A stretch of 34,934 bases of DNA from the NCBI GenBank assembly GCA_022826005.1, contig JAJDVT010000069.1, positions 1 to 34,934 of the forward strand. Reading direction: 5' to 3'. Source of the stretch: Gemmatimonadota bacterium (GTDB taxonomy: Bacteria; Gemmatimonadota; Gemmatimonadetes; Longimicrobiales; Gaopeijiaceae). Shown in pieces: positions 2,537 to 26,976 of the stretch (positions are counted from its first letter, which is position 1; each line of letters starts with the position of its first letter). A program made the position numbers and the translations under genes. Under the pieces are notes generated by a model, which saw only the letters and a list, made by a program, of their open reading frames with translations, was not told the DNA's origin and searched no databases.

Positions 2537-3643
2537 ATGCCAACGACAGCCAGCAGGCCGCGCCCAACTCGCATCGACGCCTTGCCGCCCTTCCCCGAGG
2601 GATGGTATCTGATCGCCACACGCGAGTCCATCGAGAAGAAGAGGCTGATCGAGAAGACGTGGATGGGCGAGCAGATCGTCGCATGGTGCGACGAGACCGG
2701 TGCAATTTGCGTCGCCGACGCCTTCTGTCCCCACCTGGGCTCGCACATGGGACCGACGGTCGGCGGCCGTGTGCGCGACGGTTGCCTGGTTTGTCCCTTC
2801 CACGGGTTCACCTTCGACACGACCGGCCAGTGCGTCGCCACTCCCAACGCCCCGGCCCCCAAGGCCGCGCGGCTCAAGGTCTACCGTACCAGGGAGATCC
2901 TCGGCCTGATCTTCGCGTGGTGGGGCACCGGCGGACGGCCGCCACAGTGGGACCTTCCGGAGGAACCGGCCGCCGGCCCGAAGTGGAGCAGGGTGCTCAC
3001 CACGACCCTCCGGTTCCGCGGCCACCCCCAGGAGACGACGGAAAACTCCGTGGACGTGGAGCATCTGGAGTACACGCACGGCTACAGCAACGTGCGGCCG
3101 ACGGAAATGGCGATCGACGGCGCCTACCTCAAGAGCGCCTTCGACTTCACCAGCGTGCGACGGACCGCGGGCCTGTTCGATGTCGTGGCAGACGTGTCGG
3201 CGGTCGCCCACGTCCATGGCCTGGGCTTTTCGTTCGTCGAAATCCATGAGAAGGGCATCGGCATGCACTCGCGCATGTGGGTGCTCTCAACGCCGGTCGA
3301 CGGCACGTTTGTGGAGTTGACGCTGGCCACCCAGGTGCATGAGATCCGCAAGCCGGGGCAATTCTTCAAGGGCCTGGGGTTCCTCCCGGTGAGCCTCCGT
3401 CACAGGCTGATGGCCCGCCTCTTCATCAGCGAGGAGAGGCGATACGTAGAGCAGGACGTGGTCATTTGGGACCGCAAGCGCTACCGGTCACCCCCCCGCC
3501 TATGCCAGGCCGACGGCCCGATCGGGAAGTACCGGCTGTATTGCCGTCAGTTCTATCCTGACTTACAATTACGCGTCACGCCACCGAGCCGAATCGGTTT
3601 GGCGAAAACAGTCGAGCGCCCTGCCCATCAGGGCCAGGCGTGA
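2537..3643 (+). CDS. Rieske non-haem iron oxygenase (KshA/DAF-36-like)
   Basis: Predicted 368-residue oxygenase. The Rieske centre is complete: C64-P-H66 and C86-P-F-H89 bind a [2Fe-2S] cluster, with the typical surroundings FPEGWYLIA and DAFCPHLG. The catalytic domain has the mononuclear iron motif around N170: D173-x2-H176-x4-H181. The layout matches steroid 9-alpha-hydroxylase oxygenase (KshA) and cholesterol 7-desaturase (DAF-36/Neverland) proteins, so a sterol-like or polycyclic lipid substrate is plausible but not proven. No ferredoxin or reductase gene lies nearby. The ATG at 2537 was preferred over one at 2483 because the extra 18 residues look like untranslated spacer. The P450 fusion gene follows after 31 bases, suggesting one transcript. 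Confidence 0.85.
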   Translation: MPTTASRPRPTRIDALPPFPEGWYLIATRESIEKKRLIEKTWMGEQIVAWCDETGAICVADAFCPHLGSHMGPTVGGRVRDGCLVCPFHGFTFDTTGQCVATPNAPAPKAARLKVYRTREILGLIFAWWGTGGRPPQWDLPEEPAAGPKWSRVLTTTLRFRGHPQETTENSVDVEHLEYTHGYSNVRPTEMAIDGAYLKSAFDFTSVRRTAGLFDVVADVSAVAHVHGLGFSFVEIHEKGIGMHSRMWVLSTPVDGTFVELTLATQVHEIRKPGQFFKGLGFLPVSLRHRLMARLFISEERRYVEQDVVIWDRKRYRSPPRLCQADGPIGKYRLYCRQFYPDLQLRVTPPSRIGLAKTVERPAHQGQA

Positions 3644-3674
3644 GATCCGGGTCAGAGAGAGTAGAGCCAGGCCG

Positions 3675-5702
3675 ATGTCAGTTGCTGCAGAAGCGGTGAA
3701 GACCGAGCACCTGAGCCTCCCCGAGGAACTCATCCTGATGCTCCTCAACGAGGAGAACGGCTACTTTCATCAGGTGCCCGGCTGGCAATTGAACTGTGCT
3801 GTCATCGGCGCTGTCCTCGCGGAACTCTCCCTCCAGTCGCGCATCGATACGGATCTGGAGTCCCTTTTCGTTGTGGACGAGTCGGAAACAGGCGACCCCG
3901 CCCTCGACCCGATTCTGAAGACGATCGCGAAGGAATCCCGGACACGGAATGCCACCTACTGGATAGAACGGCTCGCTCTTCGCGCGGAGTCGATCATCGA
4001 TCTGACCCTGGACCGCCTGGTCGAAGAGAAGATCCTGGAACACCACGAAGGCGAGTTCTGGACGCTGGCCAGTACCGCCTGGAAGCCCGACCCCTACAGC
4101 AGACCCCGGGAAGTCACCGTCGGTCATTTCATCAAGACGCGGATCGGCAACCTGATCCTGACCGACATGATTCCCGATCCGAGAGAAGTCATCCTCATCT
4201 GCCTCGTCAACACCTGCGACGTCTTTCGCTTCATGTTCAAGCTCGATGAAGAGGCCGAGGAGCGCATCGAGTTCATCTGCAGGATGGATCTCATCGGTCG
4301 TTCGATATCCGAAGCGGTCCTGCACAACGCCTCTGCGCCCCTGCTCCGGCGTGCTCACCTCACGAAGCAGATCCCGGCTGTGGGGCTGCGTGACCTGCTG
4401 CGCAGTCCCCATGTGCGCGACGGCAACCTTCCCGCGCTCTTTGCCGAGCTGGCAGGAAAACACGGCCCGGTTTTCAAGCTCCCCATGCCGTTCGCGGAGC
4501 CCATGATCTTCCTGGCCGGCCCGGAGGTCAACCACTGGACGAACCGGCACGGGCGCATGTACCTCCGGGCGAGAGAGTACTTTGCCGACTTCGAAAAGGT
4601 CTACGGTGCGTCCGGAGTCCTGCCTGCATTGGACGGCGCCGACCACTTCCGGCTTCGCAAGGCCATGGCGCCCGCCTATTCACGCCGTAGACTGCAGGGC
4701 CAGGCGGATGAACTGTACCGCCATGCCCGCGAATCCATGGCCGGCTGGAAGGTCGGCGATTCCTTCCAGGCACGGCGCATGTGCCGACACATGATCAACG
4801 GTCAGATCTCACCTCTCTCCGTCAGCGTCGACTCGCAGGATATCTTCGACGACCTGATGGCGTACAAGGAACGGGCGCTCACGGTCCATATCATGAAGCT
4901 CCTGCCGGGGTTCGCGATGAAGACTCCGGCAATGAAGCGCACCGCGCGGGCCATCGACACGCTTCTCGCGCGTGTCCAGAGCGTCCATACACCTGCGCAG
5001 CGGGCCGGCTGCCCGAGGGACCTGGCGGATGATCTTTTCAGTCTCAATGCGAGTGATCCTCAGCTGGTGCCGGAGTCCAATCTGCGCTTCGCCCTGTCGG
5101 CGGCGCTGATTGCGAGCGTGTATCTCGGTGACGCGTTCAGCCTTGTGTTGTACGCCATGGCGACGCAGCCCGAGTACTACGCCAGGATTCGGCGTGAAGC
5201 CGATGCCATGTTCGCCAACGGAGATCCCGATGGCGATGCCTTCACCCCGGCAGCGGTGGACGTGACCCACCGCTTCGTCACCGAGTGCCTGCGCATGTAT
5301 CCGATCGTGCCGGCATCCATGCGAAACGTGATGAACTCGTGCGTGGTGGAGGGCTACGAGCTGCCCGTTGGCGCGCGGGTCACCATTGCCCAGACGGCCC
5401 CCCACTACATGGAAGATGTCTTCCCGGACCCCTTCAAATTCGATATCGACCGCTATCTGCCGCCACGCCGTGAGCACCGCGGTCCCGGGTACGCGCCGTC
5501 CGGGCTGGGCACGCACAGGTGCCTGGGCTTCCGGTGGATGGAGCTACAGCTGATGGTCAACGTTATGCTGGTCGCACACCACTTCACGCTCGAGGTGGCA
5601 CCGGAGAACTACAAGCACCGGTTCAGCCCGTTTCCGTCGATGAAGCCGAGCAAGAAACTGAAGTTCCGAGTCGCCGAAACGGTCCGTGAGGTGCCGGTCT
5701 GA
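3675..5702 (+). CDS. GPP34 domain-cytochrome P450 fusion protein
   Basis: One uninterrupted 675-residue frame joins two families. Residues about 12-218 match GPP34 (GOLPH3-like): LSLPEELILMLLNEENG, GAVLAELSLQSRID, FVVDESETGDPALD and LDRLVEEKIL. In eukaryotes GPP34 binds phosphatidylinositol-4-phosphate on membranes; the bacterial role is unknown. Residues about 235-675 are a P450 with the K-helix E537-x-x-R540, a PERF-like region near FDIDRYLP, and the haem loop ending H614-R-C616-L-G618. Two positions deviate: the near-invariant Phe of F-x2-G-x3-C-x-G is Ser609, and the I-helix acid/alcohol pair is replaced by V-Y-L at 482-484. It lies between the Rieske and flavoprotein genes. My inference is a membrane-docked oxidase with unusual oxygen chemistry. 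Confidence 0.85.
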   Translation: MSVAAEAVKTEHLSLPEELILMLLNEENGYFHQVPGWQLNCAVIGAVLAELSLQSRIDTDLESLFVVDESETGDPALDPILKTIAKESRTRNATYWIERLALRAESIIDLTLDRLVEEKILEHHEGEFWTLASTAWKPDPYSRPREVTVGHFIKTRIGNLILTDMIPDPREVILICLVNTCDVFRFMFKLDEEAEERIEFICRMDLIGRSISEAVLHNASAPLLRRAHLTKQIPAVGLRDLLRSPHVRDGNLPALFAELAGKHGPVFKLPMPFAEPMIFLAGPEVNHWTNRHGRMYLRAREYFADFEKVYGASGVLPALDGADHFRLRKAMAPAYSRRRLQGQADELYRHARESMAGWKVGDSFQARRMCRHMINGQISPLSVSVDSQDIFDDLMAYKERALTVHIMKLLPGFAMKTPAMKRTARAIDTLLARVQSVHTPAQRAGCPRDLADDLFSLNASDPQLVPESNLRFALSAALIASVYLGDAFSLVLYAMATQPEYYARIRREADAMFANGDPDGDAFTPAAVDVTHRFVTECLRMYPIVPASMRNVMNSCVVEGYELPVGARVTIAQTAPHYMEDVFPDPFKFDIDRYLPPRREHRGPGYAPSGLGTHRCLGFRWMELQLMVNVMLVAHHFTLEVAPENYKHRFSPFPSMKPSKKLKFRVAETVREVPV

Positions 5703-5776
5703 CGTATGGGAACCCCGCGGGGCCCGGGAGCCGCGCGGCCGGTGACGGGAAGGCAGCGCCGCGACGGATAGCCATC

Positions 5777-7120
5777 GTGGGCGGGGGCGTTTCGGGCCTC
5801 GGAGCCGCCTGGGCGCTCCATCATCACCCGGACCGGTTCGACTTCCAGCTCTTTGAAGCGCGGGATTGCGTAGGGGGGAATGCGGTCACTGCCGACATGC
5901 CGCAGGATGATGGTGGCTCAATTCCCTTCGACATATCCGTCACCGCCTGCATTCCGTCGGTGTACCGGCACATGCTGCTGTTGATGGAGCAGTTCGGCAT
6001 CGACCTGATCGATACCAGATTCAGCTACAGCGTCAAGTACCGCGGCCGTGTCTATGCCCACGATTTCGATTCCGACATCCGGGATCGGCTGCGGGCGGAG
6101 ATTGTGAAGTTCCAGCGACTCCTGAGGCGCCTGCACCGCTTTGGCGGGCTGACCCGTGCCCGATCGAAGTTCCTGAACGCCCTCAATCCGTTCAATTACA
6201 TCAGCATGGGAGCCCTTCTGAACCTGGCCGGGCTATCCGGGGACTTCAGGTACAAGGTGCTGAAGCCGATGTTCGTCAACTTCCTGATGGCGACGAACGT
6301 GTTCGACATGCCCGCCGCGCTTTTTGCAAGATACCTCGAGTTTTTTGACATCGAATCCTCGACGCCCATGCAAACGTGGGACCAGGGAACGAGACGCATT
6401 TACGAGAACCTGACCGCCGGTTTCCGGGACAGGATCCATCTCAACCGTCCTGTACGCAAGGTATACCGCCGGAAGTCCCATGTCGTGGTCGAGGACGAAG
6501 ACGGGGCACAGGAGACGTTCGACGAGGTAATCTTCGCGTGCAATGCGAACCAGACATTGATGATACTCGACCGGCCCACAATGCTGGAGCGCTATATCCT
6601 GTCCTCGATACGGTACGAGAGCGAACTCCACAACCACGCTATCGTGCATTCCGACGCGTCGGTGCTTCCGGACAACGAAGTACAGCCGATTACTACGCGC
6701 AGCAATCACATCGAGCAATACGGGGCCAGGCCGGACAACTATGAAATCACTTACATAATGCACAACCAGCAGCCGTGGGCCGGCAGGTCGGATAAGCCCT
6801 GTCTGGTGACCTACAACCCGGTCAGCCGCATCGACGAACGCAGGATCGTCGGCAGGTGGTGGTTTCAGCATGTCGTCCACGATGTTCGCCACGTCGCCCT
6901 CCTCGTCCCCCTCTTCCGATTCATTCAGGGAAGGAGGCGGACGTGGCACTGCGGCGCCCACACACTGGTCAACAGCCAGGAAACCTGCTTCGTCAGCGGG
7001 CTCGCCGCCGCCACCCAGATCGGTGCAGACTACCCCTTCGACGACGCGGAAGCGCGCCGGTCATTCAACCACTACGGCAGCATCCTGCACGGATGGCGGT
7101 TCAGGAAGGCGCGGGGGTAA
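5777..7120 (+). CDS. FAD-dependent oxidoreductase, amine-oxidase-like (start uncertain)
   Basis: Flavoprotein of about 447 residues with a dinucleotide-binding motif (GGGVSGLGAAW), a glutamate ending the second strand (FEARDCVGGN) and a C-terminal FAD segment near CFVSGLAAATQIGADYP. It resembles the predicted NAD/FAD-binding proteins of the COG2907 group. The GTG at 5777 is the only standard start in frame, yet it cuts off the first beta strand: RRIAIV is encoded just upstream and the frame stays open back to 5690 with no ATG or GTG. An ATG at 5706 is in another frame, so a lost base or a CTG/ATA start is possible. It follows the P450 gene and overlaps the RND gene tail-to-tail by 20 bases. 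Confidence 0.75.
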   Translation: MGGGVSGLGAAWALHHHPDRFDFQLFEARDCVGGNAVTADMPQDDGGSIPFDISVTACIPSVYRHMLLLMEQFGIDLIDTRFSYSVKYRGRVYAHDFDSDIRDRLRAEIVKFQRLLRRLHRFGGLTRARSKFLNALNPFNYISMGALLNLAGLSGDFRYKVLKPMFVNFLMATNVFDMPAALFARYLEFFDIESSTPMQTWDQGTRRIYENLTAGFRDRIHLNRPVRKVYRRKSHVVVEDEDGAQETFDEVIFACNANQTLMILDRPTMLERYILSSIRYESELHNHAIVHSDASVLPDNEVQPITTRSNHIEQYGARPDNYEITYIMHNQQPWAGRSDKPCLVTYNPVSRIDERRIVGRWWFQHVVHDVRHVALLVPLFRFIQGRRRTWHCGAHTLVNSQETCFVSGLAAATQIGADYPFDDAEARRSFNHYGSILHGWRFRKARG

Positions 7121-10100
7121 GGGTCCGACCGGCGGGTGCCTCCACCGCCCGCCCCTTGCGCCGCGCAACCCACTTCAGGTGGATCGAGGACAGCGCCGGC
7201 ACCAGGAACATCAGAATGGCCGTGGTGAAGAGGATGCCGCAGCCGACCGAGGCGGAGAAGGGGACGAAGAACTGCGCCTGAATGGCATCTTCGAGGATGA
7301 GGGGCGTGAAGCCGAGGAACGTGGTCAGCGAGGTGAGCATGATCGGGCGGAAGCGTCCCTTGGCGCCTTCTATGATCGCCTCTCGCACCGGAAGTCCTTC
7401 CTCGAGTTCCTGGTCGATGAAGTCGATCATGACCAGGGAATCGTTCACCACCACGCCGGCCAGCCCGAAGATCCCGATAAACGACTCCGAACTCAGGGTC
7501 ACGCCCAGGATCCAGTGGCCCAGGATCACCCCGATGAACCCGAACGGGATGATGGCCATGATGATGAAGGGCTTGGTGTAGGAGCCCAGCGGAATCGCCA
7601 GCAGCGCGAAGATCAGGATCATGGCGATCCCGAACCCGGGCCCCAGTGCGTTCATGGACTCCAGCTGCTGCTGCTGCTCACCTCCAAAGGAGTATTTGAG
7701 GTTCGGGTCCTCGGCGACGAGCGGCGCAAGGATGTCGTTCTCCAGAATGTTGTTGGCCTGCCCGCCGGAGATCACCGCCGCGTCCACATCTGCGGAGACC
7801 CTGACGACGCGCTGGCCGTCCTGGCGATGGATGGCGGTCGGCGACCTGCCCGAGCTCAGGGAAGCCACCCGGCTCACAGGGACTTCCGCGCCGGCCGCCG
7901 TCCGGACCAGGGAGCTCTCGATGTCGGTGATCGAGTTGCGCTGTTCCTCGGGCAGCCGCACGTACACGCGCACCTCTTCCCGGCCGCGCTGCACCCGCAG
8001 GGCTTCCGCGCCGAAGAACGCGGCGCGCGTCTGCATGGCGAGGTCGTCGAGGGTAAGGCCCAGGGTTCGCGCCTCGGGAAGCAGGCCGAGCTGGATCTCG
8101 GGGATGCCGGGGGTAACATCGGAGCGGATGTCGTGGATGCCGCCAACCTCACGAAGACGATTGACGACCGACGTTGCGATCCCGGGGAGGCGCTCGGGGT
8201 CGGGATGCGACAGCACCGCCTCGACCGGATTGCCGAGGTCGTAGATCTTGCCGGTGATGGTGATCGACCGCACATGGGGCAGGATACCCACCTCCTCGCG
8301 CCACACCTGCACGACGTCTCCTGTGGGAATTCGCCTGTGCTGCGCGTCCAGGAGCTTGAACGCTATGGTGGCGACATTGGCTTCCGGGTTCAGGTTGGGA
8401 TTGGGACTGAGTCCCCCTCCCTCGATCCGCGGCCGTTGACCAACGGTAATCGTGACTCCGGAAAGAAGAGGAAGAGCGTCGGCGGGCCGGTCTGCGGAGA
8501 TGCGCGCGATGGCCCGGTGGCCGGCCGCTTCCAGTTCGCGGGCCACCTCGTAGGTTCGCTCGGCCGTCGTCCCGTCCGGCATCTCAAGGGTGGCGGTTGC
8601 GAAATCGCCCTCGACCTCGGTGGCAAAAGTGAACGAAACGATGCCGGCCGGCAGCAGCGCAGCGCAAAGGATGAGCAGCGCAACGGCTCCCGAGAGCGTC
8701 AGTCCGGGACGGTCGGTCGCGAAAGTCACCGCGCGATGAAGCGGTCCCTGCACGAACCTGCCCAGCAGCAGATCGACGCGACCCTGAACCCGGGCCACGA
8801 CTACGCCCGCGCGCGTCCGGGGCGCCCACTCCGGGCCGTGGAGATGGTGGGACAGGTGGTTGGGCAGCACCAGCAGCGATTCGACCAGCGAGATCACCAG
8901 CATCGCGATGACGATGGTCGGCAGCGCCTTCCAGGTCTGTCCGACACCTCCCGGAATGAAGAGCAGGGGAGCGAACGCGGCCACAGTGGTCAGCACCGCA
9001 AAGATCAGCGGCACCTTGATCCGGCGTGCACCGCGGATCGCCGCGACGACGCCCGGCGTGCCCTTCATACGCTCCAGGTGGATGTGCTCGGAGACGACAA
9101 TCGCGTCGTCCACGACGATCCCGATCGCGAGGACGAACGAGAACAGGGAGACCGCGTGGATCGCCAGGTCGAGTGCAAACATGACGGCCAGGGCACCGAT
9201 ACCCGAAACGCCGAGGCCGACGGCTACCCAGAAGGCAAGCCGTAGTTCGAGAAACAGCCCGAGTGCGATCAGCACCAGCAGGAGTCCAAGCAGACCGTTC
9301 TTGATGAGGATCGCGGCGCGCTCCTCAAAGGCGTCGGACTCGTCGTTCCAGATGGTGATGCCCACGCCGTCCGGGAGGGAGGGGGCAATCTCGTTGGCGA
9401 CGTGCTCCCGCACGGCGCGCGCCACATTCATCACCTTCTCGCCGTCGGCGCGCGAGACCTCCACGAACACGGCCGGCAGGCCCTGGTGCCGGACGATCAG
9501 ATCGACGTCCTGGAAGCCGTCGCGCACCTCGGCGATATCACCCACCCGGACGACCGTCCCGTCACTGCGGCTGATGAGGACGATCTCCTCGAAGTCCTGT
9601 TGATCGTAGCTCTGCCCCAGGGTGCGCACCCGGACCTGGGACTGCTCCGTGTCGATGCTGCCGGCAGACAGGTCCAGGGAGCTCCGCCGAACCGTGTTGG
9701 CAACATCGGTCAGCGTGAGTCCGAGGGCCCTCAGCCGCTCCAGGGGCACCTCGATCGAGATCTCGTAGTTTCGCACGCCGCTCGTCTCGACCTGGGAGAC
9801 GGAGGGCAGCGCGGCGAGCTCGTCCTCGACGCGGTATGCGAGCTCCTTCAGAGAACGCTCGCTCACATCGCCGAACACGACCAGGCGCATCACGCTCTGG
9901 GCGTTGGTCATCTCCCTGATCTGGGGCCGTTCCGCTTCGCCCGGGAAGGTCTGAATGCGGCCGACCGCCGCTTCGACATCGGCCAGGGCATCGTTCATGT
10001 CCGTGCCCGAACGCATTTCCACCCTGACCGATCCCATGCCCGGGGCCGCCACGGACTTGACCCCCTTCACGTCGCCCAGCCCCTCGACCTCGTCCTCGAT

Positions 10101-10331
10101 CTTGACGACGATGCCCTCCTCCACCTCCTCGGGCGTGGCGCCCGGATAGGCGACGGAGACTTCGACCTGGTTGAAGGGGACGGTGGGCCACGCTTCCAGC
10201 TCAAGCCCGAACAGCGACGCCACTCCCGCGACGATGATTCCGATCATCAGCAGATTGGCGGCAACGCCGTTGCTCGCCATGTAGGCGATCGGACCGGGAG
10301 GTTCGCTGTGGTGTCTCTCGTCGGGACTCAT
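7101..10331 (-). CDS. RND efflux permease, AcrB/HAE1-like
   Basis: A 1076-residue inner-membrane pump of the resistance-nodulation-division family, which exports compounds with the proton gradient. It has the N-terminal TM1 (NGVAANLLMIGIIVAG), two large periplasmic domains opening with VEVSVAYPGATPEEVE, and the TM4 segment IGIVVDDAIVVSEHI carrying the paired aspartates of proton relay. The second half repeats the fold and ends with VVNDSLVMIDFIDQE and FTTAILMFLVPAL. Length is normal for the family. The ATG at 10331 was chosen because the preceding 56 residues look like spacer; a GGAGG sits about 12 bases upstream. No membrane-fusion or outer-membrane partner is adjacent, so it must work with proteins encoded elsewhere. 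Substrate unknown. Confidence 0.9.
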   Translation of the reverse strand: MSPDERHHSEPPGPIAYMASNGVAANLLMIGIIVAGVASLFGLELEAWPTVPFNQVEVSVAYPGATPEEVEEGIVVKIEDEVEGLGDVKGVKSVAAPGMGSVRVEMRSGTDMNDALADVEAAVGRIQTFPGEAERPQIREMTNAQSVMRLVVFGDVSERSLKELAYRVEDELAALPSVSQVETSGVRNYEISIEVPLERLRALGLTLTDVANTVRRSSLDLSAGSIDTEQSQVRVRTLGQSYDQQDFEEIVLISRSDGTVVRVGDIAEVRDGFQDVDLIVRHQGLPAVFVEVSRADGEKVMNVARAVREHVANEIAPSLPDGVGITIWNDESDAFEERAAILIKNGLLGLLLVLIALGLFLELRLAFWVAVGLGVSGIGALAVMFALDLAIHAVSLFSFVLAIGIVVDDAIVVSEHIHLERMKGTPGVVAAIRGARRIKVPLIFAVLTTVAAFAPLLFIPGGVGQTWKALPTIVIAMLVISLVESLLVLPNHLSHHLHGPEWAPRTRAGVVVARVQGRVDLLLGRFVQGPLHRAVTFATDRPGLTLSGAVALLILCAALLPAGIVSFTFATEVEGDFATATLEMPDGTTAERTYEVARELEAAGHRAIARISADRPADALPLLSGVTITVGQRPRIEGGGLSPNPNLNPEANVATIAFKLLDAQHRRIPTGDVVQVWREEVGILPHVRSITITGKIYDLGNPVEAVLSHPDPERLPGIATSVVNRLREVGGIHDIRSDVTPGIPEIQLGLLPEARTLGLTLDDLAMQTRAAFFGAEALRVQRGREEVRVYVRLPEEQRNSITDIESSLVRTAAGAEVPVSRVASLSSGRSPTAIHRQDGQRVVRVSADVDAAVISGGQANNILENDILAPLVAEDPNLKYSFGGEQQQQLESMNALGPGFGIAMILIFALLAIPLGSYTKPFIIMAIIPFGFIGVILGHWILGVTLSSESFIGIFGLAGVVVNDSLVMIDFIDQELEEGLPVREAIIEGAKGRFRPIMLTSLTTFLGFTPLILEDAIQAQFFVPFSASVGCGILFTTAILMFLVPALSSIHLKWVARRKGRAVEAPAGRTLTPAPS

Positions 10332-10473
10332 CTTGCCGGGTCCGCCTCCGGTCTGGTCCGGCGTCTCATGATCGGCCTGCAGCAGGCATCGCCCCGAAGG
10401 ATAGTCGGTGCCGTGTCTGCATGCCATATTGTACCATCGCGATACGACGATCACCCCGGGCAACGAGGACACC

Positions 10474-10794
10474 ATGGCCAAGTACATGTTCCGCACCAAC
10501 TACACGCAATCCGGTCTGAAGGGACTGCTCGCCGAGGGCGGCACCGGCCGGGAGGCTGCCCTGCGCCAGACGGTCGAGGGCGTCGGCGGCACGCTGGAGG
10601 GGTTCTACTACGCCTTCGGCGACTGCGACCTGTACCTCATCACCGACCTGCCCGACGAGGCGGCCGCGACGGCGCTCTCGCTGAACATTGCCGCTGCGGG
10701 CGCACTCACGGTGTCCGTGACCGTTCTGCTCACGGCGCAGGATGTGGACGAGGCAGTCGCCAGGAAAGTGGGGTACAGGCTTCCCGGCGCCTGA
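10474..10794 (+). CDS. GYD-domain protein
   Basis: Small 106-residue cytoplasmic protein matching the GYD family: it opens with KYMFRTNYTQSGLKGLL, has the central GGTLEGFYYAFGDCDLYLI and ends KVGYRLPG. The family adopts a ferredoxin-like, dimeric alpha/beta-barrel fold and its function is not settled. The ATG at 10474 has GAGGA (10465-10469) 4 bases upstream and gives the usual family start; a longer frame from 10408 adds residues not seen in the family. It is divergent from the RND pump gene across 142 bases. The third position of the name-giving GYD motif is Arg here. Confidence 0.8.
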   Translation: MAKYMFRTNYTQSGLKGLLAEGGTGREAALRQTVEGVGGTLEGFYYAFGDCDLYLITDLPDEAAATALSLNIAAAGALTVSVTVLLTAQDVDEAVARKVGYRLPGA

Positions 10795-10895: not shown

Positions 10896-10938
10896 CATTG
10901 ACAGCATTGACATCACGATATAATGTGTGATGTCAATG
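10896..10938 (+). promoter_or_regulatory. Promoter inside an operator palindrome of the toxin-antitoxin operon
   Basis: A perfect 11-bp inverted repeat, CATTGACATCA (10905-10915) and TGATGTCAATG (10928-10938), encloses a consensus -10 box TATAAT (10919-10924). A partial extra copy, CATTGACA (10896-10903), lies directly upstream in the same orientation and contains TTGACA (10898-10903), 15 bases before the -10 box, a slightly short spacing. The layout fits autorepression by the ribbon-helix-helix antitoxin encoded 28 bases downstream, as is known for FitAB/VapBC operons. Confidence 0.7.
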
Positions 10939-10965
10939 AATGCACTCCAACGACAGCAGTGGACA

Positions 10966-11202
10966 ATGGCTCAACTCACGGTCCGTCGGCTCTCTCGTCA
11001 GATCATCGACGGTCTCAAGCAGCGCGCCGCGGCCAACGGCAGGTCCGCCGAAGCGGAACACCGGGAGATCCTGCGGCATACCCTGCTCCCCGCCGAGGGG
11101 ACGTTCGCCGAGCGGGCCCGGGCGATGCGGCAGCGTCTCGCATCCTGCATCGACAGCACCGACACGATTCGCGCGGACCGAGACCGGGACACGTTGCCGT
11201 GA
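10966..11202 (+). CDS. FitA/VapB-type ribbon-helix-helix antitoxin
   Basis: A 78-residue protein with the standard FitA-like start AQLTVRRLSRQIIDGLKQRA followed by GRSAEAEHREILRHTL, the ribbon-helix-helix DNA-binding unit. The C-terminal tail, rich in Arg and Asp, would wrap the toxin. The ATG at 10966 was chosen because family members start at this point; upstream ATG codons at 10930 and 10936 fall within or beside the operator repeat. Its stop overlaps the toxin's GTG start (GTGA), so the two are translationally coupled. It probably represses its own operon through the inverted repeat just upstream. Confidence 0.85.
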   Translation: MAQLTVRRLSRQIIDGLKQRAAANGRSAEAEHREILRHTLLPAEGTFAERARAMRQRLASCIDSTDTIRADRDRDTLP

Positions 11203-11645
11203 CCGGGTACGTCGTCGACGCGAGCGTGGCCGTGAAGTGGCTGGTCGCCGAATCCCTCTCCGAAGAGTCGGCGACGCTGCTTGACTCGGGTGTGACGCTA
11301 CTGGCGCCCGATCTGCTCTTCGCCGAAGCGACAAGCGCGCTGGCCGCCAAGCACCGGCAGGGTGAGATGAGCCCTGAACAGCTCGCCGAAGCGGTCGACC
11401 TGCTGCGTACCGCCCCGGTGGCCACACCGCTTTCAATGCGCCGGCTCGCCGCCTCAAGCACACGTCTTGCGAGCGACCTGGGGCATCCCGTGTACGATTG
11501 CTTCTACCTCGCGCTGGCGATTCACGAGAACTATTCGGTCGTAACGGCGGACACCCGCTTCCATGACAAGGTGCGCAAGCACCCGTACCTCGCCGACCGG
11601 GTGGTTCATGTCGCCGAACTGGCCGGCGGCGAGCCCGCTGGATGA
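11199..11645 (+). CDS. PIN-domain ribonuclease toxin (VapC/FitB-like)
   Basis: A 148-residue PIN nuclease with the acidic residues expected at the active site: D7 (VVDASVAVKW), E43 (FAEATSAL), D100 (VYDCFYLALA) and D118 (TADTRF). Members cut RNA in a magnesium-dependent way, often tRNA or rRNA. The GTG at 11199 overlaps the antitoxin stop and gives the family-standard N-terminus. All key residues are present, so it should be active unless bound by the antitoxin. The HEAT-repeat gene ends 26 bases away on the opposite strand. Confidence 0.88.
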   Translation: MTGYVVDASVAVKWLVAESLSEESATLLDSGVTLLAPDLLFAEATSALAAKHRQGEMSPEQLAEAVDLLRTAPVATPLSMRRLAASSTRLASDLGHPVYDCFYLALAIHENYSVVTADTRFHDKVRKHPYLADRVVHVAELAGGEPAG

Positions 11646-25806: not shown

Positions 25807-26976
25807 ATGCGGCGCGAATCCACTGGCACCCATGAAGTGACAGTTGGCGGGGGAGAGACCGTGCGAGCGTTCGTGCCCTTGCCACTCCCACCTGTCCCGG
25901 AGGTCGATTTCCGGGAGGGGCTCTGTCGTCCCCTCGAAGCCGCCACCGCAGCACTCGGGCGACTCGATGCGGTTACGGAGTTGCTTCCGGACGCGACCGT
26001 CTTCGTCTACGGCTACGTCCGGAAAGAGGCTGTCCTGTCCTCCCAGATCGAGGGCACTCAGTCCTCACTCGCCGACCTGATGCTCCATGAAGCAGGTGGC
26101 TCGCCCGATGTCCCCTTCAGCGACATCATTGAGACGTCGAACGCCGTCGTGGCCCTCAATCATGGTGTTGAGCGCCTGCGAGGCGGCTTCCCACTCTCGA
26201 ATCGTCTCATGCGCGAGATGCACGCCAGGCTGCTGGCGAGCGGCCGCGGAGCGGCGATGCTGCCGGGCGAGTTCCGGCGATCGCAGAACTGGATCGGGGG
26301 CTCGCGTCCCGGCAATGCGGCCTTCGTGCCGCCACCCCCCAACCACGTCCAGGATTGCATGGCCGACCTGGAGCGGTTCATTCACGCCACGGACGACGGA
26401 CTTCCGGTCCTCGTCAAGGCCGGGCTGGCACATGTGCAGTTCGAAACCATCCACCCCTTCCTGGACGGTAACGGCCGACTGGGACGATTACTGATTACCC
26501 TGATGCTCTGCGATGCCGGACTTCTGAGGGCGCCGCTCCTCTACCTCAGCCTCTACTTCAAGCGCAATCGAAGCGCCTACTACCAGCTCCTGAACGACAT
26601 CCGGCACACCGGGGACTGGGAAGCGTGGCTGCGGTTCTTCCTGGAGGGTGTGCGAGAGGTTGCGGAGGGAGCTTTCGCGACGGCCCGGTCCGCCAGCGAA
26701 ACGATCCGGGACGACCGGTCGCGAATCGGGCGTCAGGGAAGGCGTGCGGGTTCGGCGCTCCGGGTCCACCAGGCCCTCGTCGAACGGCTGGTCGGGCGCA
26801 TCGGCGGCCTCGCGTCGCGAACCGGGCTGTCCGCACCGACGGTAGCCGCGGCGCTTCGGCTTCTCGAGAAGCTCGACATCGTGCGCGAGATCACCGGCCG
26901 CCAGAGGGGCAAGGTCTACCGCTACGAGCGCTACCTGGCCGTCTTGCGGGAGGGCACGGAAGAGCCGCCCGAGTAG
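25807..26976 (+). CDS. Fic-family AMPylase with N-terminal inhibitory motif and C-terminal winged helix
   Basis: A 389-residue Fic protein that would transfer AMP (or another nucleotide part) from ATP to protein hydroxyl groups. The catalytic motif is intact: H216-PFLDGNGRLGR. The inhibitory motif (S/T)-x-x-x-E-(G/N) is present near the N-terminus as SSQIEG (78-83), placing it in the self-inhibited class with the inhibitory helix before the core. A dimer/Fic_N-type domain fills residues 20-110. The end (about 325-375) is a winged-helix domain: SRTGLSAPTVAAALRLLEK. This layout is typical of chromosomal Fic proteins in bacteria; targets are unknown. It stands alone, with no antitoxin gene next to it. 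Confidence 0.88.
   Translation: MRRESTGTHEVTVGGGETVRAFVPLPLPPVPEVDFREGLCRPLEAATAALGRLDAVTELLPDATVFVYGYVRKEAVLSSQIEGTQSSLADLMLHEAGGSPDVPFSDIIETSNAVVALNHGVERLRGGFPLSNRLMREMHARLLASGRGAAMLPGEFRRSQNWIGGSRPGNAAFVPPPPNHVQDCMADLERFIHATDDGLPVLVKAGLAHVQFETIHPFLDGNGRLGRLLITLMLCDAGLLRAPLLYLSLYFKRNRSAYYQLLNDIRHTGDWEAWLRFFLEGVREVAEGAFATARSASETIRDDRSRIGRQGRRAGSALRVHQALVERLVGRIGGLASRTGLSAPTVAAALRLLEKLDIVREITGRQRGKVYRYERYLAVLREGTEEPPE

Follow-up and report, generated by a model that had tools for sequence, protein, structure and literature searches.

The window analysed here, a stretch of 34,934 nucleotides, is the start of contig C4 in a draft genome of 4.85 Mb whose RpoB clusters with Gemmatimonadetes MAGs. 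Genes for a Rieske oxygenase (RO), a GPP34-P450 fusion and an amine-oxidase-fold flavoprotein (FLV) lie head-to-tail on the plus strand (Table 1). An earlier sequence-only reading had proposed this arrangement; Pfam confirms all three genes, and the gap of 31 bases given for RO and P450 is the figure found here. The second gap, stated as about 75 bases between P450 and FLV, holds if FLV starts at GTG 5777, but we judge this start too late. With it the FAD fold would lose its first strand (RRIAIVGGG), homology shows the frame conserved further upstream, to about 5714, and the P450 stop codon TGA (5700-5702) shares bases with a CTG in the FLV frame (5699-5701). CTG 5699 is thus a possible start, and the two genes may have no gap at all. 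The statement that no transporter lies inside the set is literally true, but an RND pump gene overlaps the 3′ end of FLV by 20 bases.

Table 1. Features of the module in the window
Feature	Positions	Strand	Support or remark
Rieske oxygenase (RO), KshA_C type, 368 aa	2537-3643	+	Pfam Rieske 1e-15, KshA_C 2e-25
GPP34-P450 fusion, 675 aa	3675-5702	+	Pfam GPP34 7e-31, p450 3e-32
GPP34 domain of the fusion (residues 15-215)	about 3717-4319	+	
Cytochrome P450 domain of the fusion (residues 249-663)	about 4419-5663	+	
Amine-oxidase-fold flavoprotein (FLV)	about 5700-7120	+	Pfam Amino_oxidase 2e-17
AcrB-type RND transporter	7101-10499	-	Pfam ACR_tran 4e-158; convergent to FLV
c63, predicted membrane protein, 243 aa	16128-16859	+	counted in the module by association

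Several other genes of the window were recorded. A ZrgA-family zinc uptake protein is encoded near the contig start (764-1408, minus strand), and a Fic/DOC family protein with a winged-helix tail at 25807-26976 (plus strand). A PIN-domain (VapC-like) protein is encoded at 10923-11645 (plus strand), and genome G021 has an 88%-identical stretch close to its own copy of the module (L099:384-848).

The KshA_C domain of RO scores 90.6 bits against a Pfam cut-off of 23.3. Its ligands to the [2Fe-2S] cluster and the mononuclear iron are C64, H66, C86, H89, N170, D173, H176, H181 and D307, and the motifs CxH...CxxH and NxxDxxHxxxxH together with D307 are kept in at least 95% of 49 homologues. The best solved relatives are 3-ketosteroid 9alpha-hydroxylases. 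In domain and ligands, the assignment to the KshA/DAF-36 type made from the sequence is borne out. In contrast, RO cannot be equated with the C-4 sterol demethylase SdmA, as it reaches 32.9 bits where the NCBIfam equivalog cut-off is 600 bits. A separate SdmA-type Rieske protein is found in the sterol clusters described below; it scores 398 bits, likewise below that cut-off. From its family, RO would act on the ring system of a sterol by hydroxylation or desaturation, as KshA and DAF-36/Neverland do at C-9 or C-7.

In the fusion protein, the GPP34 domain scores 108.4 bits, above the Pfam cut-off, and phmmer found no relative of it among solved structures. Relatives commonly have standalone GPP34 proteins with about 40% identity to this N-terminal domain, so it is the fusion that is special and not the GPP34 domain. 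A literature search on GPP34 with P450s in bacteria returned nothing relevant. By analogy with its eukaryotic role, the domain may serve as a membrane anchor; the module gives the bacterial GPP34 domain a biochemical context. In these symbionts the fusion forms a family of several members: a further GPP34-P450, divergent and about 43% identical to the first, adjoins that first copy or lies near FLV at L068:12121-14142 and L065:13441-15444.

The P450 domain has the haem cysteine loop and the ExxR motif in all 70 homologues. At the position usually held by the acid-threonine pair of the I helix, 69 of the 70 copies carry a tyrosine (Tyr483), a placement that comes from sequence alignment. The alignment also makes this helix one residue shorter than in a canonical paralogue of the same genome (L097). 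Among solved P450s, bacterial CYP51s come nearest, matching residues 469-651 only. Because of this limited match and the change of threonine to tyrosine, an identity as CYP51 was rejected; a separate P450, presumed to be CYP51, is present within the same sterol clusters.

The nearest solved proteins to FLV are LkcE, which matches near full length, and then the polyenoic fatty-acid double-bond isomerase group 2b9w. These relatives suggest a dehydrogenase or a double-bond isomerase. The AlphaFold model of FLV (mean pLDDT 49) is too poor for fold comparison, as is that of c63 (mean pLDDT 44). The c63 protein is found in 39 of 196 related genomes, nearly all of them carriers of the module, and in Nitrospirota and Chloroflexota its gene lies within the sterol clusters; copies adjoining FLV, the cyclase or SdmB (L059, L060, L069, L070, L077) are 62-66% identical. 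Profile searches with c63 gave chance matches only. A match to EBP (E 0.2) is below threshold and non-significant, so no sterol-isomerase role is claimed. As a side observation, c63 is a candidate for a missing sterol enzyme.

Co-occurrence of the genes was examined in 196 relatives. Strong homologues are present in 39 genomes for P450, 42 for RO, 34 for FLV and 35 for the sterol methyltransferase. P450 and RO are together in 38 genomes, a near-perfect nesting, and pairwise Fisher tests among the four families give p values of 1e-21 to 1e-34, uncorrected for phylogeny. The carriers belong to 6 of 90 genera. When 395 genomes were drawn from the phylum, 6 of 138 genera had the GPP34-P450 family, called at E <= 1e-60, which takes in more distant paralogues of about 32-43% identity. 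Among 296 Nitrospirota genomes the family appears in nine. The sequence-only reading had named a failure of the three genes to co-occur in relatives as the outcome that would speak against it; they do co-occur.

A collection-wide scan with one genome per species (84,980 species) yielded 59 further P450 loci. Within 10 kb of the P450, these loci contain RO (39 loci), an RND pump (30), the sterol methyltransferase (27), FLV (26), a sterol-sensing MMPL pump (17) and an MpaB-type oxygenase (10). As the co-occurrence in relatives shows, the grouping of the oxidative genes is not due to chance, but the set of three was drawn too small: the module also includes a pump, a methyltransferase and a membrane protein, and it forms no fixed operon. 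Gene order varies widely between loci, and the exact succession RO, P450, FLV was seen, among the loci examined, in the window and in genomes G021 and G014. Rearrangement is recorded in L038, L045 and L082, where about 54 residues of a P450 C-terminus remain beside RO. In these three loci an MpaB/rubber-oxygenase-type (MPAB_Lcp_cat) haem oxygenase gene lies between P450 and RO (L045:13108-14316, L038:13426-14634, L082:13404-14612), next to this C-terminal remnant, which derives from a second P450 copy.

The neighbourhoods in other phyla connect the module to sterol genes. At least two canonical sterol genes stand beside it in four Nitrospirota loci (L039, L059, L060, L077) and two Chloroflexota loci (L069, L070), drawn from a squalene-epoxidase/oxidosqualene-cyclase (SE-OSC) fusion, CYP51, ERG24, SdmA and SdmB. 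In L059 and L060, P450, FLV and c63 follow one another, and the opposite strand carries the epoxidase-cyclase fusion, the presumed CYP51, ERG24, SdmA and SdmB. Profiles confirm the families (PF08491 with PF13243/PF13249 and TIGR03463, PF01222, PF08498). The SdmA and SdmB models match at 2e-119 and 2e-87, both under the curated cut-offs, and the cluster P450 is presumed to be CYP51 from its position and its match to P450s in general rather than from a curated CYP51 model. The neighbouring methyltransferase has a Sterol_MT_C domain (PF08498, E 3e-13). A cyclase lies within 11 kb in 5 of the 59 loci; with the loci taken as independent, the chance probability is about 4e-5, a value which is only a guide since several of them are related. 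Two tandem ERG24-type sterol reductases were also noted adjoining FLV, RO and P450 (L042:4223-6629 and L043:3792-6192, both minus strand). Since the canonical pathway is not near most Gemmatimonadota carriers, the sterol linkage rests on the other phyla. Within these limits, the earlier suggestion that the set tailors a membrane lipid or a polycyclic isoprenoid is supported, with sterol genes adjoining the module in six loci of two phyla.

Transport genes recur in these neighbourhoods. HlyD and TolC partners adjoin the RND pump in Latescibacterota and Verrucomicrobiota, and the MMPL pump of Chloroflexota contains a sterol-sensing domain. The position of the pumps, and for MMPL also this domain, points to export. 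A relation to BstABC sterol transport found no support: the MMPL neighbour scores 27 bits where the BstA equivalog requires 1400, and the RND pump (L067 copy) has no BstA match at E 1e-5 or better.

How did the module come to be so widely distributed? RpoB sequences of 28 carrier genomes form twelve groups at 68% identity, corresponding to at least nine phyla or classes. Between lineages, FLV is 69-86% identical, and in all 111 between-group pairs its identity exceeds that of RpoB (median 79% against 59%), which points to cross-phylum transfer. The same excess is seen in 310 of 348 pairs for P450 and in 34 of 34 for the methyltransferase but in only 56 of 142 for RO, so RO may have a history partly separate from that of FLV. 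In the trees, mostly phylum clusters are joined by short, weak branches and clear mixing occurs only in places, for example in a fully supported P450 group of Chloroflexota and Alphaproteobacteria. Transfer between phyla therefore appears occasional and not rampant, with descent afterwards. Some MAG contigs may be mis-binned. The records of L045, L046, L048 and L082 are titled Gammaproteobacteria, and these titles look wrong; for L045 the title was rejected, as its RpoB groups with Gemmatimonadota.

The traced hosts are sponges. The jk18x loci come from Ircinia symbionts (PMC9531527) and the bin22, bin75 and bin76 loci from Aplysina aerophoba symbionts (PMC5649159, with agreeing accessions), and the codes RHO, COS, IRC and APA appear to match host names of PMC8163846. 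No non-sponge sample was met among the loci whose sample was traced; SB06, Plut, CO36, 277c, 287ce and the chromosome assemblies are untraced.

The origin of the sterol probably differs between carriers. The genome of the window has a sterol methyltransferase on contig C103 and an ERG24-type reductase on C81. It also has an oxidosqualene cyclase fragment, a C-terminal portion truncated where contig C79 ends and 78% identical to the Nitrospirota fusion. The search for cyclases advised by the sequence-only reading gave this fragment in the genome of the window; most genomes with P450 or RO have no cyclase match of the oxidosqualene type. G021, a single contig with 99% completeness, contains RO, P450 and FLV, and the cyclase, ERG24, the methyltransferase and c63 were not found in it. 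In G001 (single contig, 97%) the picture is similar, and c63 matches only in part. Both belong to the carriers without a cyclase, which also lack the methyltransferase and any ERG24 above cut-off. Many carriers therefore most likely use an external sterol, which would have to come from the host or from neighbouring bacteria.

We consider it likely that these genes form a module for sterol tailoring which has spread horizontally among bacterial symbionts of sponges. As the module recurs in symbionts of many phyla, partly beside sterol-making genes, these bacteria probably remodel sterols by an undescribed route. A sterol is the predicted class of substrate, well supported by linkage and co-occurrence; the exact reactions, their order and position, and the sterol as substrate of each single enzyme are inferred. 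The substrate would be made in the cell in some symbionts and obtained from the sponge or neighbouring bacteria in many others. Besides the proposed action of RO on the rings, the membrane-targeted GPP34-P450 may perform a further oxidation or a rearrangement, FLV may create a double bond or move one, and the methyltransferase would alkylate the side chain. The RND or MMPL pump could deliver the resulting sterol to the host or the outer membrane.

Two other readings of the whole module have to be weighed against sterol tailoring. The KshA-like Rieske protein, the P450 and the flavoprotein could start the breakdown of host sterols, with the pump expelling toxic products. The solved 3-ketosteroid 9alpha-hydroxylases closest to RO, the missing sterol synthesis in many carriers and the AcrB-type pump next to FLV would fit such degradation or detoxification. 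We nevertheless regard it as unlikely, because the neighbours are biosynthetic (methyltransferase, cyclase, CYP51, ERG24, SdmAB), side-chain methylation is not a degradative step, and no KstD, Hsa or side-chain beta-oxidation genes were seen among the conserved neighbours. Slightly less probable still is the tailoring of a hopanoid, carotenoid, terpene or other polycyclic isoprenoid or membrane lipid, the sterol genes being merely co-located on a mobile island. Repeated linkage to sterol genes in varied orders and two phyla is hard to explain by hitch-hiking, the sterol methyltransferase is linked in several lineages, and matches of the hopene-cyclase type in relatives are mostly in non-carriers; on the other side stand the many carriers that lack a cyclase and the broad superfamilies to which P450 and FLV belong.

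Within the sterol reading, the chemistry of the P450 deserves a separate consideration. The enzyme might be a rearranging or peroxide-using haem protein and no monooxygenase, a tentative proposal. The replacement of the acid-alcohol pair by a conserved tyrosine, combined with the deletion of one residue, raises its chance, and P450s without the I-helix threonine include CYP74, prostacyclin synthase and thromboxane synthase. However, known monooxygenases may lack this threonine as well: P450eryF has none and is a monooxygenase.

Whether the sponge or its bacteria make the unusual demosponge sterols matters for the symbiosis and for the reading of sterane fossils. With this module in common, symbionts of many phyla could alter sterols of the host or the community, using among other enzymes a membrane-targeted P450 with tyrosine chemistry in place of the acid-threonine pair, and could thereby be a source of some unusual 'sponge' sterols (for example ring-oxidised, Delta5,7 or 9,11-seco) that are now credited to the animal; we put this forward as a speculation that is somewhat doubtful. 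The module names concrete undescribed enzymes beside bacterial sterol pathways, across phyla and also in symbionts without a detectable cyclase, and symbiont tailoring of host sterol becomes directly testable.

Comparison with characterised enzymes shows partial resemblances. RO shares the KshA_C domain and the Rieske and iron ligands with KshA and DAF-36/Neverland; neither a ferredoxin nor a KshB-like reductase that could serve as its redox partner was seen in the module. LkcE and the fatty-acid isomerase 2b9w match FLV over nearly the full length but are distant from it, and the context of FLV is a sterol one.

Among gene clusters, the msb cluster of a Melophlus symbiont comprises an epoxidase-cyclase fusion, a demethylase, a reductase, a Rieske protein with its reductase and a methyltransferase (Mohanty et al. 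2020, PMC7074536). Its Rieske protein was likened to a C-4 demethylase, and neither a GPP34-P450 nor an amine-oxidase-type flavoprotein is mentioned. Sponge-symbiont sterol methyltransferases that yield 24-isopropyl sterols are clustered with sdmA and sdmB (Brown et al. 2023, PMC10070321); the main text names no P450 or Rieske protein, and the supplements may draw unnamed neighbours. The accessible part of Kelly et al. 2022 (PMC9531527) describes clusters of steroid genes (CSGs) in Ircinia symbionts of about ten phyla with horizontal spread. It names no KshA-type Rieske protein, GPP34-P450, flavoprotein or pump, and the available main-text portions of all three papers do not mention the module. 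Because the jk18x and A. aerophoba loci come from the same published data, earlier work may already have come across their neighbours and left them unlabelled. The earlier claim of an undescribed pathway is accordingly to be divided: sponge-symbiont sterol clusters and sterol methyltransferases are already known, but the module and its fused P450 appear in no text searched. The module often stands without a CSG, and the window itself has none of the genes ERG24, CYP51 and lanosterol synthase that make up its core. It is in Nitrospirota and Chloroflexota that the CSG core (ERG24, CYP51, cyclase and methyltransferase flank) adjoins the module.
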